NCBI GenBank assembly: GCA_001563305.1
Contig: CP013703.1
Location: forward strand, 682,001-746,000
Direction: 5' to 3'
Length of the DNA: 64,000 nucleotides
Origin: a methanogenic archaeon mixed culture ISO4-G1
GTDB lineage: Archaea > Thermoplasmatota > Thermoplasmata > Methanomassiliicoccales > Methanomethylophilaceae
Shown: positions 17,626 to 47,849 of the stretch, one piece after another
Position numbering within the stretch: position 1 is the first letter of the stretch
How the letters are laid out: every line of letters starts with the position of its first letter
Program-made: the position numbers and the translations under genes
The notes under the pieces: model-generated
Database searches by the model: none
Seen by the model: only the letters and a program-made list of their open reading frames with translations
Told to the model about the DNA's origin: nothing

Positions 17626-19371
17626 TTAGAATTGAGATTTTCTCGTAGTTTTTATAGGTTCTAATTTAGGTATTTTGAATGAGTTTAAACCACCAGTTTG
17701 CTTCATGAATGAATTGTATTGCCGAATGATTTCTGCCGCAGGTTTGTTTCCGGTATTTGCCAAAGTCTGAAGACATCTGTTTCCAAAAGGATTGGTTTCA
17801 TCGGATTCACGGAGTATTTTATCAATTACTGTGGGATTTTGATAATTTCTAATCAAGAATTCCGATCCATATTCGGTGTTCGGATTACATCTTTCGATAA
17901 TAGGTTCAATTTCTAAAAATGAATGATTTGTGCAGTAGTCTAGACATTCCATCCCATATGGATTATCTAAGAGGGCTTCACGTTCAATTTTATTTAGAAT
18001 CGTAGTTTTTGTAGATTCGTTGAGATACTCGATTAGAAGGTCTGATCCGATCTTGTCATTAGGGTCAGATATTTGTATAATGTCCTCAACCAACGATGGC
18101 ATTTTATTGACCAGTATACCGATCATCTCACGCCCATATTGTTTCTTTTCACAATTTTTGATTAAACAAATAAGTGATTTCTTATCGACAGTTTTGTCAA
18201 TTGTTTCGGACAAAGTTCTGATATCCTCTAAACTGTTGGGAGAGAATGTCTCTATCAACCTGTTTTTCGCTGTTGTTTTGTATTCTTCTGTATGCTCGAT
18301 AAGGTGGTTCAGGTAGATTATGCCGTATCTATTGTCGGCAGTCGATCTATTGATGCTCTCTGTTATTTCTTTTGAATCCATGACAGCTAGACATTGTAGT
18401 AAGAACCAGCATCCAGCTTCTGTATTGGGGTCGCTCTCAGCAATATATGTAGAAGGTTTGTTTTTGAATTTCAGAGCTATTATGCAAGCACATCCAGATT
18501 TACAATTAATGTTAGCTTTGGAACAAATCGCATTCTTCACTTTTGGAATTGAAATATTTTTTTTGAAGAAATGAACGTTGTATTCTGAATTGGGGTCCAA
18601 TCTGTCAGCCAGAAAAGAAATTATTTCCTGATCATCGCTTTCTTTCATAGTGTACATGAATATATCGTGGTCTTTGACTAAATCATAGTAATTCATCAGT
18701 ATGGTTTTGGAATGCTTTGGATGGTCCGATATAGCAGACAATATGTCAAGACAACCCGTCTTTTTCCAGAGTTCAAGTAATTTGTCCGGCGAGGAGTTTT
18801 TCATCAATAGAGAAAATGAGGATTTTCCCAGGGCGTCATTCTAATCAATTTTATTGATCAAGGTTGCATCTACATAATCTGTGATTGCGTCATTTTTTAG
18901 AACATTGTTTCCCAGCACAGAATTTGGATTAAGATCTTTCATAGTCAAGCAGGGGTATCCTCTTTTTATGATCTCGACAACTAGTGAAGTGCTGTTTTTA
19001 CAATTCCATTTTATTTTCGGAACAGAGTATTTGAGTACTATCTGTTCATATCTTTCATCACTTAGATAATGAACGAGTATTTCGCAATCTTTGAACTTAT
19101 TGGGATTGAGCTGCCGTATCAACTGTTCAACAGTCATGGCAGGTTGCAAATTAGTTTTTCTATTCTCCTTTGGTGACTTTTTCTTGTTTTTGCTATCTGC
19201 ATAATTGAATTGTTTTTTGGGCTTTAACTTCATTTTTTTAATGATTTGGATGAGGTCTGAGCAATTACATCCCTTCTTTGTTGCATCAGCACAGTTTTTC
19301 TCAGCTTCTTCAAGATGGGAGTTCCTGATATTGTATTCAGCCATTTTTCTGTACTGTTCGCCGGTAATCAT
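17626..19371 (-). CDS. Solenoid repeat protein with an in-frame TAG codon
   Basis: Two open stretches, 19371-18844 and 18840-17626, are in the same frame and separated only by one TAG (18843-18841, codon 177). Read through, they give a 581-residue protein. The N-terminus is TPR-like (EEAEKNCADATKKGC). The rest is made of roughly a dozen degenerate 30-40 residue repeats with the pattern [D/N]-P-N-x3-G-x3-L, for example SDPNTEAGCWFLL, SDPNDKIGSDLLIEYL and CNPNTEYGSEFLIRNY. The TAG falls inside one such repeat (INKID-X-NDALGKSSFSLL), where X takes the place of the usual Pro. No start codon with a ribosome site suggests a separate downstream gene. It is likely pyrrolysine read-through; recent pseudogenisation is the alternative. 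Function unknown, probably a protein-binding alpha-solenoid. Final stop TAA. Confidence 0.65.
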
Positions 19372-31327: not shown

Positions 31328-34114
31328 ATGAGAGAAACATCGATTGAGGTCAACGACCGGGGTGAGAAAGGAAGGGAGTCGTCCACTTCTGCGAGGGATT
31401 TTAAGATGAAGAAGACCAAGACCATCAGAGAGATTTACGAGGAAGCCAAAGCTCTGAACGTCGACCTTATCCTAACCAATGATGCCGCTCTCGCTACGGC
31501 CATCAACGCCATGGTAGACGAGCCCATGGTAGGTTCGTTCGCCATGACACCTATCCAGATGGCATCGAAACATGCCATCGACATCCTCGGTGAGCCAATC
31601 TGGAGCGAAGTCAGGGTCATACAGACGATCTCTGAGTATACCGGACTAGATTTCAGGTATGTGCATGGTGAAGTCGACAAGATCAAGGATATCGCAAGAT
31701 ACAGGGAGGACATAGAGCAGTTCCTAACATCGTCTTCCAAGAGGGTATACAGAAACTGGGCATCGCTTCCAACATTAGAAACGGCGATGAGGAAGTTCGA
31801 TGCTGACAATGCGCAGATCTACGAGGGTAAGAGGATCGGCACAATCGGAGCACAGTACTTCAATCGTATGGACAGGATGATGGTTCCGACCGATTCTCAG
31901 AATTTGGATATCTCAATCTTCAAGGATGGTGACTACAGGATCCCGAAGATCTTCGGGATAGGCAATGACAGGCAGATTGCCGACAACGCTGTGAAACTCA
32001 TCAACCCCCTCAACCCGTTGGATTATGCAATCGTGATGAACAGAGATTCCGGGCTAGCGGACGCAGTCAGGTCGGCACTGTACAGGGAGGGGCTTCCTTT
32101 TGTAAATGCTCTGGGTGTACGCGACCTGAATGGTATCAGGGACTTCATGCAGATGGCCGACAGATGCATGTCATATTGGACTCTCAGGGTTAGGGATGTA
32201 AGGAGCCTGTTCGCATCATTTGGAATAACGATATCGTCGAAGTCCGACGAACACCTTTTGCACAAGGAGAGATTCTGGGACGAGAAGGCCGAGGCATTAA
32301 GGCTGCTGATGGAAGAGACCAGCCTGTACGAGGATCAGGGCCACGGCACAACATTCCTGGACCTGGCTGAGAAGATTTACGACATCTCGGGAATGGATCA
32401 CAGGAGAGGACTGCCCTCGATCAAAATAGTCATCGACGATATGAAGCTCACCGACGAGCTCATTACACCTCAGAATGTTTCCAAGATGGAGTACGCGGTT
32501 GACAATGTCATGGACCTGCACCACAACGAGCAGATTCCCGAGGACGAGAAGAGAGGGGTTCTGCTTTCGGATTGCAAGAGCTCCGTGTTCATCGACAGAC
32601 CTGTGGTCATATACCTGGGTATGGAACAGGATTGGAACGTCGATCTGGTCAAGAAACCGTACATTCCCTGTATCGAGGATGAGGTTGATAACGTGGCGGA
32701 CACTATGTCTGCGATGTTACAGCAGGGATCCGTCAGATTCTATCTGGTCAATAGGACCAAGGAGGGGAAGACGGCAGTGCCCACCACAATGTTCAATGAG
32801 ATGATCAAGGTTAAGCCGAAGCCGATTGAGAGGTTCAGTGATATCACCGACGACTACAGGGAGGAGAGATGGTACGAGCCGCAGAAGTCGGGATACAATG
32901 TCAAAATCTCGGACTCTGAGGAGAAGTATGTTGCACCGTTTTCCCAATCCAACTTTTCCGAGTACGTCAAGTGTCCTAGGGGTTTCATGTTCAAAACGAT
33001 GTTATCGGATCCGGATAAGGCTGTGATGGAATTTGGTACTATGATCCACGAATTTGCTGAGACATATGCCAGTTATAAGAGGGAGGTCATGGAGAAAGGA
33101 CTTGATTCATTCATCAAGCAATCTTGTGACAGGTTCTCAGGTTTAAGCACACCGTTACTCGATGAATTCGACAAGGAAAGGATAAGATGTGCTGTGGTAA
33201 ACATCACGAGATTCATGGACCAAATGGGTCTTGGAGATCCGGGGGACGATGAATGGAAAGATGCAGATACCAAATATGGAGGTAACTGGTATTATGTCAA
33301 CAGTTTCGATGAGCCAAAGACCAAGACTTATTCTGAATGTGAGGATGATAAGGATTCGAACGAGCACAGGATACATGGCAAGATGGATTTAAAGCACGGA
33401 AATACCGTCATCGATTATAAGACTGGAGGGGCCAAATCAGGTAGCGAAATAGTGAAGAACTTCCAGTTGGACAAATTGGTACGGCACCCCGATTATCAAT
33501 GTTTGTTCTATCTTGCAGTTGCCTATGAACTGTACCACTCAGATACATTCCAGTTTTTCTTTGTCATGGATAATGATTTAGAATACATGGATCCAGATTA
33601 CGATATTAGACGCAATTTACGCACAGTAAAACTGATCGATAGGGACGTGGAGAGTTTAAAGAGAGATCCGTTAGTTTTGGACGCATTTGAGTCTGGTACT
33701 GCCTATAATGCTAAGTTCAAGGGGATGTCCGATCAGTTTATCGACATTTTGCTTGAGAATTCTAGTGGTGACATGTCTACTTGGGCAGATCCCAACATAA
33801 ACATCAGAGCATACAATGCTTTGAGCGACAAGTTCTGTAGCGAGGATGGCATGGATCCCGACACCTTCACCAACAACGTCAACAGGTATGTGGGGCTGAT
33901 AACAGCTCCGGTAATAGCATCATCAACAACCGTGTATGTGCAGAAGAAATATCTGGATGAGTTTCTCAATAAGGTGGATAAAATGCATGCCGAGATGTCC
34001 GAGGATTCTAAGAGAGTAGGCGGTTTGATGCCTTTTCCGAAGACCAACTGTCGCTACTGCAAGTACTTCTCCGTATGCATGATCGATAGGAATGATGAGG
34101 GGGCGGTAGAATGA
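31328..34114 (+). CDS. AddB-like PD-(D/E)XK nuclease with Fe-S staple
   Basis: A 928-residue AddB-type protein. The N-terminal 500 residues have no Walker A motif and would be the inactive helicase-like scaffold. From about residue 545 a Cas4/AddB-type nuclease follows: FSEYVKCPRGFMF (first Fe-S Cys), FGTMIHEFAETY (the His/acid motif), then HGKMDL and VIDYKTGG (the D...D-x-K catalytic core). CRYCKYFSVC near residue 909 supplies the C-x2-C-x5-C triad of the 4Fe-4S staple. All catalytic positions look intact, unlike the other AddB-like gene in this window. The final ATGA overlaps the start of the AddA-like helicase. It is expected to process DNA ends in repair or degrade foreign DNA. An in-frame ATG at 31406 is an alternative start. 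Confidence 0.85.
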   Translation: MRETSIEVNDRGEKGRESSTSARDFKMKKTKTIREIYEEAKALNVDLILTNDAALATAINAMVDEPMVGSFAMTPIQMASKHAIDILGEPIWSEVRVIQTISEYTGLDFRYVHGEVDKIKDIARYREDIEQFLTSSSKRVYRNWASLPTLETAMRKFDADNAQIYEGKRIGTIGAQYFNRMDRMMVPTDSQNLDISIFKDGDYRIPKIFGIGNDRQIADNAVKLINPLNPLDYAIVMNRDSGLADAVRSALYREGLPFVNALGVRDLNGIRDFMQMADRCMSYWTLRVRDVRSLFASFGITISSKSDEHLLHKERFWDEKAEALRLLMEETSLYEDQGHGTTFLDLAEKIYDISGMDHRRGLPSIKIVIDDMKLTDELITPQNVSKMEYAVDNVMDLHHNEQIPEDEKRGVLLSDCKSSVFIDRPVVIYLGMEQDWNVDLVKKPYIPCIEDEVDNVADTMSAMLQQGSVRFYLVNRTKEGKTAVPTTMFNEMIKVKPKPIERFSDITDDYREERWYEPQKSGYNVKISDSEEKYVAPFSQSNFSEYVKCPRGFMFKTMLSDPDKAVMEFGTMIHEFAETYASYKREVMEKGLDSFIKQSCDRFSGLSTPLLDEFDKERIRCAVVNITRFMDQMGLGDPGDDEWKDADTKYGGNWYYVNSFDEPKTKTYSECEDDKDSNEHRIHGKMDLKHGNTVIDYKTGGAKSGSEIVKNFQLDKLVRHPDYQCLFYLAVAYELYHSDTFQFFFVMDNDLEYMDPDYDIRRNLRTVKLIDRDVESLKRDPLVLDAFESGTAYNAKFKGMSDQFIDILLENSSGDMSTWADPNINIRAYNALSDKFCSEDGMDPDTFTNNVNRYVGLITAPVIASSTTVYVQKKYLDEFLNKVDKMHAEMSEDSKRVGGLMPFPKTNCRYCKYFSVCMIDRNDEGAVE

Positions 34115-37068
34115 CAGAGAAGAAAGGGCCAAACAAAAAACAGCAGGAATTGATCGACCAACATAACGGCATGGTCAAGGTGGATGCCGGACCTGGCACT
34201 GGGAAGACAGACACAATTGTCCACAGGTATGTAGATATCCTGAAAAATGAGCAGGTTCCCCCAGGAGAGGTCCTGATGTTAACATTCACCGAGAACGCAG
34301 CGGAGGAGATGTCCGAGAGGATAAAGTTCGAGATGGAGAAGAAAGGCCTCACCCAAGAGAAGAAAAAAGTCTTGGCCATGACATTTGACTCATTCTTTCA
34401 CTCCATAGTGATGGACAATGTCGAGTTTGTAGGGGACTTCTTCGGTATAAAGAAGAAGATGACTCGCTCTGCCACCCTCAGCTCCAACGAGACCATGAAC
34501 AAGCTGTACTTCAGGAGATACTATGAGGATTTTATGGACAGGCATGGTAGTAGGTATGGTGATATCGCGGTGATACTTGCGAGCGAGTGGGCCATTATGT
34601 ACGATCTCATTCAGAGGTTGATGTCCAAAGGGGTGGTTCCAATCAAGGACGGCTGGTTCGGATACAACTGGAAGGAGGCTCTGTACGGCAAGAAGGAACT
34701 TTCCGATAGGATGAAGGGCCTTATGGGCAAGAAGTTTACAAAAGCTCTGAAAAACAATAAAGAGTATTCCCAAGACTTCTCTGGGAAACTGGTTACGCAG
34801 GAAACCATAGATGATGCCATCAGAGGAAATCGCGAAATGTTGTCAGAGTTGATCCATGATGTGTTTTTAGGATACATCGAGAAAAGTATCTCAGACAACA
34901 GGCTAACCTTCGCGTTGAATTCGACGTTCGCTTTCACACTGCTCTACGGCAGTAAAATTGTAAGAGATGCCCATAAGTTCACTTACGTGGTAATAGATGA
35001 GTTCCAGGACACAGATGCTAAGCAGCTAATGGTGGCTCTGATGCTGCTGAAAAAGGACTGTCCAAATCTGTGCGTGGTTGGAGACTGGAAGCAAGGTATC
35101 TATGGGTTCAGATACGTATCTATAGAGAACATCAAGAACTTCAAGGGAAGGGTGGAGGAGCTTCATGCTTTCCTGAATTTGGACTGTCCAGACGGTAGGA
35201 GAGCAGATTTCAGATACGATTCGTCTGAGGTTAAGGAGGTTGTATTCAGGGAGAATTATCGCTCTACTCAGGAGATCGTGAACAAAGCGTACGACGTCAT
35301 GCTCGCCGAGGCTGTGAAAGGCGATGTGCAACCACCGAGCATGGAGGAGGATATTAAACGCATCACGGCTAAAAACGATTATTACAAGGCGTTCGAAGGA
35401 GGATTGAGATTCGTCCAAGCCAAGTCTCAGGATGATGAGCCTCTTATGGTAGTGAAGGCTGTGAGAGATTACGCGGACGGTAAGCATGTATTCTTCGAAA
35501 AGGACGGTACTAAGAGGATGTTAGACCTGAAGGACATCTGTGTATTGTGTCGCACGACTTACAAATGCAGAGAGGTGACCAATGCGTTGAAGGATGCTGG
35601 TATACCGGCATACTTACAGGGGGACGTAGAGATCATGTCTACTAGGGAGGGGAAGCTTGCATTGGCCTGGCTGAGATATGTGATGAACGAGCACGACCCC
35701 TATGGAATATATCCTATCCTTCTGGACCTTGGATATCCGATGGCGACGGTCCTCGTGGAGAAGAAAAGATGGGACGATTATCTAAGAACCAAGGATCAGC
35801 AGTACCTGAAAGACAAGATTCCGATGGAACTCAAGGACCAGAGGAAGGAGCTAATCAGGAGCAGTAGGAGGATACCCAGCATGCTGACCCAGTTGTTCGA
35901 GTTCTACGACGACCTGGATCAGGATATTGTGCAGGCCATAGTTTCTACAGTATCATCGTCACACAGGAACTCCCTGCTGACCATTGCAGATATAGTGTCG
36001 ATGATTGAGCAGGATATTGCCAATAGGACCAAGTACGAGGTTGAGGACAATATTGATAGGGATGCAGTGAGGGTCATGACGATGCATAAGTCTAAGGGAA
36101 TGGAGTTTGGGGCAGTCATCATCCCATACTTCGATTCCAGGAGTATGCCGAGCTCCGGATCCGGGGACATCTCCTAGAAGTCTATGTACTACAGTGAACT
36201 GGTTGGCGTCAGGTGCTTGTGTGATATGGTGGAAAACGGCGGCTATAAGAAGAAGGTTTACTCCTGGAGCTCTGACATGGTACGCTCGGTAGAGAAGCCC
36301 AGCTATGACGAGGATCATAGGCTGCTGTTCGTATCTTTATCCAGGGCGAAGATGTATGAGACATTGATATGCGGTCCGGACGAGTGCAGGTTCATGTAGT
36401 GCCTAAGGAAGGGGCGTGATTTCGAGGATATACCAGAACATCCGCTCAATGAGTTTGGATCAGTTCCGAAGCTTTCAGACATTCCGAAGGTCCCGCCCTA
36501 CGAGAAGAGGATCATCAAGATGTCCGTCCACGACATCATGAGGCTGAGGTACTCGTACAACGGGGATGAGATGTCTGACGAGATGGGCGGCAAGGGCATG
36601 GCCTACGGAACAGAGGTCCACAAGGACGCGGAGATGTTGAAGCGCGGAAGGGAGCCTGAGACGCCCAAACCGGAGCACGAGGTGATCCGTAGGATCCTGA
36701 AGGAAGTGGAATCCAGAGGACACATGTATGTATACGAAACGGAGATGGATTGCCAGCTGCCTATAAGGGATCAGAACGTGATGCTCAGGGGAACCATAGA
36801 CCTCATAGCAGGATACGACGACCATGTGGAGATTCACGATTGGAAGACTGACTCGGAGATGGATCCAGATGTGTTGGAGGAGTACAAACTGCAGCTTTCT
36901 GTATATGCTCAGGCGACGAAAGGATACTATGGGAAGGATGACGTAAGATGTTACATACACTATGTTAGCCTTGGAGAGACAGTTGCTTTTAAGCCTATGG
37001 ATACGGAGATGATTGAGGAGAGAGTCAGGGAGACGTTAATCACAAGAGGTGAGATAGAGATAGGGTGA
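34111..37068 (+). CDS. AddA-like helicase-nuclease with two in-frame TAG codons
   Basis: A single 985-codon frame interrupted only by TAG at 36175-36177 (codon 689) and 36397-36399 (codon 763). Before the first TAG: Walker A DAGPGTGKTDT (27-33), motif II VVIDEFQDTDAKQ (about 296), motif III VGDWKQGIYGFRYV, motif IV NYRSTQE and motif V TMHKSKGMEFGAVIIPY (about 655). Between the TAGs: motif VI RLLFVSLSRAKMYE (about 737). After the second: a PD-(D/E)XK nuclease with GTIDLIAGY and EIHDWKTDSEMD (895-913). Essential motif VI and the nuclease thus lie beyond TAGs, so the protein works only if UAG is decoded, most plausibly as pyrrolysine. No ribosome site suggests internal restarts. It overlaps the AddB-like gene (ATGA) and forms a helicase-nuclease pair with it. 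Final stop TGA. Confidence 0.8.
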
Positions 37069-37152: not shown

Positions 37153-38037
37153 TCAGTTTTTGGGTCCGAAATAGATCTCTCTTTCTTCCAACATCTCTTC
37201 TGTGGTCCAATTTAAGTACTCGTGTTTCCCACATACTTCGCTGGAGTTGAAAGTACAGTCCAGGTGTCTGTATTTGCCGTCTATGCGAGCAAAGTTCCAA
37301 GCATGCGTCTCATGATATCTTTTATGCGTCTCATGATATCTTATCGGTTCTTTTGTGAGGTTATACTTGTTATATGGACGGCTATCATTAGTATCGAACT
37401 TCTTAAGGGGGGCCATCCGCTCAAAGTATTCTTTCTCGCTGTACTTCAAGATGGAATTCTTGGCATTATGGTTCTTCAGATCTCCATGGATTACGTAGCA
37501 TTTGACTCCGAAGCAGTTGAGAAGTAGCGTTGCGGCTTGCGAATATGATATGCAGACTCCCTAATTCTCAAGCAGAATCCCCCTTACGTCATGCCTTATA
37601 CGGAAGTCCCCATCCTTGCAGTACGTACATTTCTGTACAAGCCATTCGTTGACCCTAATCTCTTTTTCCAAGTCAGTTTCGCAGTCTGCTATTCCAAGGT
37701 AGTTGTAGAGGCCGTTGACCCTGCACGTGACGGCTCTCTGAAGTTCGTTCTTTTCCTTATTTGGCATATATTTGAACTTAACCTCTGTTTTCCCGTTTAT
37801 ATGTTCGAAATCGAAGGATTCTAAATGATACAGCAGCGGGTTGCAGTAATTAGCAATGATGATGAACTCCCGAATCGTCTCTTCGTCAAAGATGCAAGGA
37901 AGCGTAACAGTCTTTTTTGATGTTTGGCTGGTCAGAGCTTTCAGTATCTTTTCGAATGCTTGGCGTTCTCCATCACTTGGATATTTGTCAGAAAGCCAAT
38001 CTGGTTTTGGAAACGTTATCAAAAAAGGGTCAATCAT
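37153..38037 (-). CDS. Transglutaminase-like protein with an in-frame TAG beside the catalytic Cys
   Basis: One 294-codon frame with TAG at 37563-37561 (codon 159). Downstream, the transglutaminase/protease core is complete: G-V-Cys162 in GVCISYSQAATLLLNCFGV, His245 in THAWNFARIDG and Asp260 in YRHLDCTF, the Cys-His-Asp triad. Upstream is about 155 residues with RVNEWLVQKCTYCKD and RHDVRGILLEN, the helix and turn that usually lead into K-G-x-C. The TAG occupies that position just before Gly-Val-Cys, so a lysine derivative there is natural. A short tandem repeat (RYHETH twice, 37305-37345) precedes the catalytic His. Starts with ATG at 38037, final stop TGA; no signal peptide. The substrate is unknown. 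Confidence 0.7.
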
Positions 38038-40478: not shown

Positions 40479-40637
40479 GTGCAGGACCGAAATCCTCCTG
40501 GTACCCGAAGGACGATCGATCGAAGACGGGAACCGTCTTCAAAAGGCCACCACACGGCACGACCATCTGCGAGGTCTGATATGTGCCGTGCCTGGACCAC
40601 CGGCAGATTAGCCGCGTCCGGCAATCAGGTCCTGCAC
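40479..40637 (-). ncRNA. Candidate structured RNA adjoining the reverse transcriptase
   Basis: A 159-base element closed by a perfect 10-bp terminal helix, GTGCAGGACC at 40479-40488 with GGTCCTGCAC at 40628-40637. Inside are two perfect 8-bp hairpins: CACGGCAC 40553-40560 with GTGCCGTG 40583-40590 (extended inward by GACC/GGTC), and GAAGACGG 40522-40529 with CCGTCTTC 40533-40540. On the minus strand it is followed by a T-rich run (ATCTTTTTCTCC). It overlaps only the last 13 bases of the RT gene. The architecture recalls the terminal a1/a2 pairing of retron RNAs or the ncRNAs of defence RT systems, but it is 3' of the RT gene rather than 5'. The strand is inferred from the U-tract and RT orientation. 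Confidence 0.5.
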
Positions 40638-41878
40638 GGCACTCCATCTTCGGATTCGGATTTATATCTACGGTTATAGAATCTGTTGACAAGGGTTTGG
40701 TAGCCCATTCCCTTCAGATATTGGTATGATACGCAATACAGGTTGCCCTTAACATGCTTTCCCGTGACGATGAATCTGCACCATTCCTGTATCTGATTAT
40801 CGATGATCTTTAGCGATTTATCAGTATTGATAAGAGGGAAGTACCAGTGCGTCCAGCAGGCCTTCGAGTTCTTCTCCCAACCGAAGAACCTCTGGTCCAT
40901 TCTGGTCAGGAAGCAATGGACGGATTCCTCTGTAGTCTTTTCGCCTATCTCAACCAGTTTTCTATAGTGCCTACCTTCCATTCTGATCTTCTTCATGGTC
41001 CTGTCCAAGGATTTTCTGTTCAGGTCGAATGAACCATCTTGGATGAACAGGCCCAGGAATTCGATTCTGTCATGAGGCCTGTAGAAGATCTCCTTGTCGG
41101 GGTTGATAACCAGATTTCTTTTTTTGATGAGCATCCTGACATACCCGACATGTTTATTCAGTTCCTCTTTGGAGTTTGAAAGGATAAGGATATCGTCAGC
41201 GAATCTGTAGTATTGGATCCTCATCTGTTTGAAATGGATGTCTATGTCGTTCAGATACAGATTGGAAAGGAACGTGGAGAATGGCAGGCCCGGCATGATG
41301 CCCCTTTTCTCATCTATGATGATCTCTCCTTCAAATTCGACCTCGGGATTACCGATTATACTGCCGATCAGTTCGATCACTCCTTTATCGATTCTCGCTT
41401 TCTTCATGATGCTAATCATCTTTTTCTGATCGACTGAGTTGAAGTATTTGGTGATGTCCGCTTTGTAGGCGTACATGGAACCTATATCATCTATGGCGCG
41501 AAGCCTGGCTACCGCTTTCTGGACGCCACCTTCGTTACGGAATGAATATAGATTATCCTGGAAGATAGCGTCATAATCCTGCAGCAGATCGGCCAGCACC
41601 CTCAGGACCATATGTTCGGTCATGTCCTTGCGTTTACATGAGTAGACAACACGTTTCTCTTCCGAATCAGGTTTGGGGATCTCGATCCTGCGAACAGGTT
41701 TGAATGTATACGTGCCATTACGTATGCTTTCAACAATTCCTCTGTATCTTCTGTTTACGATGAAATCCTCCATGATCTCTGCTTTCTCTTTGCTAGCAGA
41801 TGTCGATTTGCGCTTTAGGAAATCATCCCATACGGAATCGTCGCATAATCTGTCTATAATGGATCTGGATTCGGCCAT
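40625..41878 (-). CDS. Reverse transcriptase
   Basis: A 417-residue RNA-directed DNA polymerase. Core motifs: MYAYKADITKYFNSVDQ (motif A Asp), GIMPGLPFSTFLSNLYLNDI (motif B), QYYRFADDILILSNS (motif C, catalytic ADD), then KRNLVINPDKEIFY and RIEFLGLFIQDG. The roughly 150 C-terminal residues (FFGWEKNSKACWTHWYFPL, WCRFIVTGKH) have no maturase HNH. The motif B sequence is not the group II intron QGxxxSP form nor the SQ form typical of diversity-generating elements. It therefore looks like a stand-alone, possibly defence-related RT. A ribosome site AGGTGAAAG precedes the ATG. The structured element at 40479-40637 begins at its stop codon. Stop TGA. Confidence 0.85.
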   Translation of the reverse strand: MAESRSIIDRLCDDSVWDDFLKRKSTSASKEKAEIMEDFIVNRRYRGIVESIRNGTYTFKPVRRIEIPKPDSEEKRVVYSCKRKDMTEHMVLRVLADLLQDYDAIFQDNLYSFRNEGGVQKAVARLRAIDDIGSMYAYKADITKYFNSVDQKKMISIMKKARIDKGVIELIGSIIGNPEVEFEGEIIIDEKRGIMPGLPFSTFLSNLYLNDIDIHFKQMRIQYYRFADDILILSNSKEELNKHVGYVRMLIKKRNLVINPDKEIFYRPHDRIEFLGLFIQDGSFDLNRKSLDRTMKKIRMEGRHYRKLVEIGEKTTEESVHCFLTRMDQRFFGWEKNSKACWTHWYFPLINTDKSLKIIDNQIQEWCRFIVTGKHVKGNLYCVSYQYLKGMGYQTLVNRFYNRRYKSESEDGVPCRT

Positions 41879-47027: not shown

Positions 47028-47849
47028 ATGAGTAGTATCCGGATAATGCATGTGTCGGAAAGTTGTAGTTTCGACCAGTCTTTGGAGAGAACAATCATGG
47101 TAGAATCGTCATCTAAAGAATATGATGCCCCTTGCAATCTTTCAAAATATATTGTTCCATTCGCATTCATAAAGATGGATGCGTTTATCGGCGTAGGCGA
47201 GAACGATCAAGGACAACGTTGTTTTGTCATCTCCGACAGATTCATACATAAACCGGATCTGATATGGGACCTTATCACCGAGGCCATGACCACGAAGAGG
47301 GTTCCCCTATCCGTTCACTATTGGCTCTATGAATCTGGATATTACCAATGCCATATCGATGAGTACCTGCGGGTATGCGGGATTTATTCGTGCTCAACAA
47401 AGTATCGCAATCGTGACATCATGGCATCGGTCAGAAGGCTCATGGATTTGGATCTCATTACAGAATCGGATATTGAATCTCTAACATTCACATGGAGCTT
47501 GTACCCGATACAGGATTATTGGGGCTTCTATAGACCTGATTTGAGCCTGATTGTCATCAATCCGATTCTTTCAACCAGCGAACTTTCGTTACGGTGTTTT
47601 GATGAAATCGTATATCATGAAATTCTCCACCATATTCAACATAGTTCTAGTACAAGTTCTCTCGAACATGATCAATAGTTCATGGATTGCGAAAAAAGAT
47701 ATCCAGCATTCCAGAAGGCTCTTGATGAGCAATGTTTCTGGTGGATGAAACATGGGAAAGCGTTCAAGAACCCCATTGACGACAACGATCTTACGTACAG
47801 TAAGCTCCCGATGTTAGACTACGTTTACAATTACAATGGCGCACTGTGA
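47028..47849 (+). CDS. SprT-like zinc metallopeptidase with an in-frame TAG
   Basis: One 273-codon frame with TAG at 47676-47678 (codon 217). Upstream lies the zinc motif HEILH (His197-His201) in DEIVYHEILHHIQ, then EHDQ. Immediately after the TAG comes FMDCEKRYPAFQKALDEQ. SprT/YgjP-like archaeal peptidases have H-x3-F ... E-x2-[FY]-P about 13-20 residues after HExxH, supplying the third zinc ligand. Here His214, X217 and Phe218 reproduce it across the TAG. The C-terminal part (CFWWMKHGKAF) ends at TGA. Without decoding of the TAG this motif is lost. The N-terminal 130 residues are unassigned. It converges on the coiled-coil gene two bases beyond its stop. Confidence 0.7.

Follow-up and report, generated by a model that had tools for sequence, protein, structure and literature searches.

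The 64,000-nucleotide stretch of the ISO4-G1 genome analyzed here (the window) contains an AddA-like gene with two in-frame TAG codons. The question raised by this locus is whether the gene is decaying or whether UAG is read as pyrrolysine (Pyl), giving a full-length DNA-processing enzyme. The two UAGs of the window AddA are, on the sequence evidence set out below, very probably read as pyrrolysine.

The addA gene of the window and its operon

Translation of positions 34111–37065 gave 985 codons followed by a terminal TGA ending at 37068. The only internal stops were the TAGs at codons 689 and 763, with no TAA, TGA or frameshift, just as a sequence-only reading of this DNA had described. That reading had also placed helicase motif VI (RLLFVSLSRAK) between the two TAGs and a complete PD-(D/E)XK nuclease (GTIDLI/EIHDWKT) beyond the second, and both were found at these positions. 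Pfam matches were obtained for UvrD-helicase (PF00580, residues 8–347), UvrD_C (PF13361, residues 377–748, across codon 689) and PDDEXK_1 (PF12705, residues 849–954). An SF1 helicase core with motifs I–VI was found in the AddA product, and motif VI is present in the read-through product alone. By its predicted domains, the gene encodes an AddA-like protein of the DNA-repair type in which a UvrD helicase is joined to a RecB-family nuclease. Standard gene callers will cut such TAG genes short or label them pseudogenes, in this case at the cost of motif VI and the nuclease.

Coding scores of the three addA segments split at the TAGs were 0.30, 0.17 and 0.31 in their own frame, as against −0.30 to −0.53 for the other forward frames of the region, indicating that all three segments are coding in their own frame. 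The middle segment scored weaker, and the segment after the second TAG was on par with that ahead of the first. The addA frame is not a chance ORF, since all its segments score as coding and its homologues run continuously through both TAG points.

The TGA stop of the upstream addB overlaps the addA start as ATGA. A second AddAB operon is present in the same genome at about 810–816 kb, with AddB 37% and AddA 44% identical to the window pair. The window gene is best explained as a second, divergent AddA, the helicase-nuclease subunit of an AddAB-type end-processing complex. The PADLOC best matches, to Gabija GajB, were rejected, being confined to the generic helicase core; the neighbor of addA is AddB-like with no match to GajA, and GajB itself lacks the nuclease present in the window AddA. 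A viral sequence scan with the window gene gave zero matches and thus no sign of viral origin, and in a scan of genome contigs, remote bacterial helicases alone were matched.

Table 1. Features of the window and of the wider ISO4-G1 genome (window positions unless a locus or the genome is named).
Feature	Position	Strand	Remarks
Low-G+C island	9481–50339		mostly 36–50% G+C vs ~55% for the genome; includes the window addAB pair
Repeat protein	17626–19371	−	TAG at 18841–18843, codon 177; no Pfam family; seen by eye
AddB-like partner	31328–34114	+	PDDEXK_1 (PF12705, E = 1.3e-10); C-terminal Cys cluster NCRYCKYFSVC; intact
AddA-like gene	34111–37068	+	UvrD/SF1 helicase with C-terminal PD-(D/E)XK nuclease; 985 codons, TGA end
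In-frame TAG, addA codon 689	36175–36177	+	loop separating helicase motifs V and VI
In-frame TAG, addA codon 763	36397–36399	+	~20 residues past motif VI
Transglutaminase-like gene	37153–38037	−	TAG at 37561–37563, codon 159; Pfam domain spans the TAG
Reverse transcriptase, UG26 group	40625–41878	−	PADLOC E = 2.5e-140
SprT-like metalloprotease candidate (HExxH)	47028–47849	+	TAG at 47676–47678, codon 217; no Pfam match; seen by eye
Second (vertically inherited) AddA	L045:13229–16117, with L010, L011, L016	+	own in-frame TAG
Aconitase	L043:653–3286 = genome 560,653–563,286	−	in-frame TAG at codon 593
DNA ligase	L048:12542–14305 = genome 1,052,542–1,054,305	−	TAG at codon 46

Reading of UAG in the ISO4-G1 genome

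The genome contains the complete set of pyrrolysine genes: pylT (anticodon CTA), pylS, pylB, pylC and pylD form one cluster at 657.6–661.5 kb, 20–24 kb before the window. PylD (193.9 bits) and PylC (327.3 bits) both scored over the curated cut-offs, pylB was read from the sequence between pylS and pylC, and PylS was 100% identical to the PylRS of structure 8IFJ. No CUA anticodon was found among the 42 other tRNAs detected with Rfam and typed by ARAGORN, in a list that is incomplete in that tRNA-Tyr was not seen; one intron-containing tRNA likewise was not CUA. The release factor aRF1 is encoded in the genome, and some termination by it at UAG is possible. Near the TAG sites of addA, no Rfam elements, PYLIS included, were detected.

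The use of UAG was evaluated by six-frame coding potential in a sample of 464 kb (29% of the genome), made up of the window and 20 evenly spaced 20-kb stretches. The first coding model, trained on overlapping open frames, left coding and antisense frames unseparated and was replaced. The best coding frame preceded 365 TGA, 35 TAA and 16 TAG stops. Coding continued in the same frame after 23/365 TGA, 0/35 TAA and 13/16 TAG codons, leaving 342 TGA and 35 TAA as gene ends; the 13 continuing TAGs were 12 by threshold plus addA codon 689, whose middle segment fell just below it. At one inspected TGA, the continued coding proved to be that of the next gene, which happens to share the frame. The three remaining TAGs included one antisense within a gene and two weak cases, i.e., at most two possible gene ends. 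UAG terminates at most ~0.5% of the genes in this 464-kb sample, and its being in effect a sense codon in ISO4-G1 is the best explanation of these counts.

Four methylamine methyltransferases with an in-frame TAG, recognized from sequence, served as positive controls; the contexts in MtmB, MtbB and MttB were GMGI-Pyl-GPQTPL, TAGV-Pyl-CDAKVP and DGI-Pyl-VGVGDP. Besides these, in-frame TAGs were found in the genes for aconitase, a phosphomannomutase-type enzyme, an ATP-dependent DNA ligase, a PhoU-type phosphate transporter and a TadC-like membrane protein, as well as in the second AddA, the window AddA and the window transglutaminase-like gene, in the last just ahead of the GVC catalytic-cysteine motif. 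Two more window genes were recognized by eye: a repeat protein whose repeat pattern appears continuous across the TAG (D-Pyl-NDALG vs DPNDKIG), and an SprT-like candidate in which the zinc-site region runs through the TAG, located within an HDQ-Pyl-F...YP stretch. Methyltransferases aside, the sample (29% of the genome) thus holds ten genes with an in-frame TAG, of which two were recognized by eye alone, and the genome total of such genes may exceed 16.

The ligase makes the strongest individual case. The genome contains one PF01068 gene, and a search of the genome for an NAD-type ligase found none. Codon 46 is TAG here, where almost all relatives encode Gln (CAG/CAA), and purifying selection is strong over the following 542 codons, with 207 synonymous vs 46 nonsynonymous changes against L125. 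Judged by these sequences, UAG must be translated in ISO4-G1 because the sole DNA ligase found bears a TAG at a conserved Gln. UAG reading is thereby probably essential in a named, isolated organism.

AddA homologues, the island and the alternative explanations

Of 80 relatives, 47 have AddA homologues, almost always of full length and continuous as single proteins through both TAG points. Sense codons occupy both positions in the homologues, with variable residues: S/R/T/G/K/N/D/M/I at 689 and K/E/T/D/Q/V/R/I/S/N at 763, the two columns being among the most variable 12–14% of the alignment. Pyrrolysine at 689 and 763 looks tolerated rather than catalytic because the two codons fall at variable positions, and nothing in the sequences suggests that it is needed for AddA activity.

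In-frame TAGs also occur in AddA orthologues of G018 (one), G030 (one) and G008 (two), besides the one in the second copy of ISO4-G1. Four of these, one from each of the three genomes and that of the second copy, share a single hypervariable alignment column in proteins of 58–64% identity across three lineages (G018/G030, G008 and the ISO4-G1 copy). The tree requires two changes at this column, either one old gain and a loss or two gains. The shared column does not demonstrate selection for pyrrolysine, as 4/70 columns of like variability are codon-identical in the three lineages and the TAG column is probably among those. The AddA proteins of G018 and G030 are 97% identical, and after TAG407, their genes differ by 76 synonymous and 24 nonsynonymous codon changes with zero new stops, where neutrality predicts 75 nonsynonymous changes (minimum 61 in 2000 simulations); 86/107 changes after the TAG are at third positions. 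The parts of AddA downstream of the TAG are, by this measure, translated in this genus because selection after TAG407 is strongly purifying. Across genomes, TAG-bearing AddA and pylS were associated in the expected direction, in numbers too small for significance.

The window addAB pair lies in a low-G+C stretch that looks, from its gene content, like an acquired defence-type island: it carries UvrD helicases, an Eco57I-type restriction-modification set, RloB with AAA ATPases, and a UG26 reverse transcriptase. In the island, TAG ends 0/27 of the listed gene frames. Four island genes carry five in-frame TAGs in ~40 kb, apparently denser than elsewhere, a comparison biased by the fact that 2/4 were found by eye. 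The reverse transcriptase is itself a candidate anti-phage system in an archaeon.

This setting allows a reading in which the window addA is a recently acquired duplicate decaying in the island, the TAGs being its first lesions, while the host uses the AddAB at 810–816 kb. The existence of that operon fits such a history, as does the divergence of the window copy, which is confined to this genome among those searched: no close orthologue was found there, the nearest being of ~46% identity with a branch length of 1.59, and the long branch could reflect relaxed constraint. The sequence-only reading had argued against decay from the presence of two TAGs and no other stop; the observation is correct, and the argument is weak by itself since these codons mutate to TAG more readily than to either other stop, the probability that two nonsense mutations in addA are both TAG being ~0.34. 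Against decay stand the absence of any frameshift, TAA or TGA over 985 codons, the intact motifs beyond the TAGs, the undiminished coding score past the second TAG and the intact overlapping addB. Moreover, UAG is no gene end in this genome, so that a TAG is no lesion here, and the other AddA copy has a TAG too. The genome-wide pattern excludes decay as the reason for the addA TAGs, and we consider a decaying gene improbable overall.

Still less probable is a regulated switch, in which low pyrrolysine would yield a helicase-dead 1–688 fragment and methylamines the full enzyme, making DNA-end processing responsive to substrate. A stop at codon 689 would indeed delete motif VI and the nuclease, and the factor needed for stopping, aRF1, is present. 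However, the two AddA copies do not have their UAG sites in common, the window copy has its own at variable positions, the same codon occurs in DNA ligase and aconitase, where switching would be lethal or costly, and the Rfam elements, PYLIS among them, are absent near the sites. The sequence-only reading had suggested that a repair or defence function is tied to methylamine-type codon expansion; a special tie to methylamine metabolism finds no support, given the scatter of TAGs over unrelated genes and the hypervariability of both sites. Insertion of another amino acid by a near-cognate or other suppressor tRNA would find room in the unproven completeness of the tRNA list, and the TAGs could be sequencing errors, but the sole CUA tRNA found is tRNA-Pyl adjoining pylS, errors cannot account for all 13 in-frame TAGs of the sample and finishing of the genome drew on 454, MiSeq and Sanger data (PMC4824259), making both barely credible.

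It is, in our judgment, highly probable that the window gene is a second AddA, translated in full by tRNA-Pyl at UAG and acting as an ordinary end-processing enzyme. PylBCD would make pyrrolysine and PylS would charge tRNA-Pyl(CUA), which would decode UAG at codons 689 and 763 so that the addA mRNA is translated in full. The full-length AddA, with motif VI and nuclease, would work with AddB as an ordinary helicase-nuclease for double-stranded DNA ends. The UAGs probably arose through near-neutral mutation at tolerant, variable positions. Efficient UAG reading in the addA mRNA and pyrrolysine as the residue are inferred because of the genome-wide TAG pattern; the biochemical activity is likewise predicted from sequence. 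The principal claim of the sequence-only reading, a non-methyltransferase DNA-processing enzyme that is of full length only if UAG is read, gains support from the pyl genes and the genome-wide in-frame UAGs. The chances seem evenly balanced for a broader proposition, namely that reassignment of UAG to pyrrolysine is complete in ISO4-G1, leaving no gene that ends in UAG, and that the organism depends on Pyl synthesis for survival through its sole ligase and other housekeeping genes, with the acquired island adapted to this code and one UAG site of the vertically inherited AddA persisting across several species of the genus.

Comparison with known systems

The window AddA resembles AddAB (3U44)/RecBCD (1W36) and UvrD/PcrA in its SF1 helicase, fused as there to a PD-(D/E)XK nuclease; similar too are the overlapping genes and the partner, which brings a nuclease domain of its own and a Cys cluster. 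The similarity to 3U44 is remote (E = 3.9e-11), and the window AddB had no match among solved structures by sequence. Bacterial AddA has 1232 residues, whereas the window AddA has 985 and two UAG codons.

The closest parallels in decoding are the pyrrolysine proteins of Methanomassiliicoccales, an order to which ISO4-G1 itself belongs; the machinery is the same, TAGs are likewise spread over unrelated genes, and TAG stops are nearly absent. Candidatus M. alvus has 16 such proteins besides methylamine methyltransferases, including Cas1 and a prophage-type helicase, with TAG as 1.6% of stops (PMC4153887), and in ISO4-H5, 46 genes contain in-frame amber codons, among them cas3 and adenylate kinase (PMC5011839). 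For ISO4-G1 itself, a sheep rumen methanogen with a published chromosome of 1,593,503 bp, in-frame amber codons were described in 25 genes, 16 of them not methyltransferases (PMC4824259). AddA is not named in the published texts on M. alvus, ISO4-H5 and ISO4-G1, the last taken without its gene list, and the window AddA may be among the 25. An archaeal "Pyl code" in which all TAG codons specify pyrrolysine was reportedly confirmed by proteomics in 2025; there as here, UAG serves as a sense codon proteome-wide, a conclusion drawn here from sequence. The window AddA is a clear new case of an already known phenomenon. With it, the proteins that can exist only through UAG reading come to include a DNA end-processing enzyme, and it offers a test case for whether pyrrolysine in a natural proteome is passenger or functional, in which the free variability of both sites favors the passenger.
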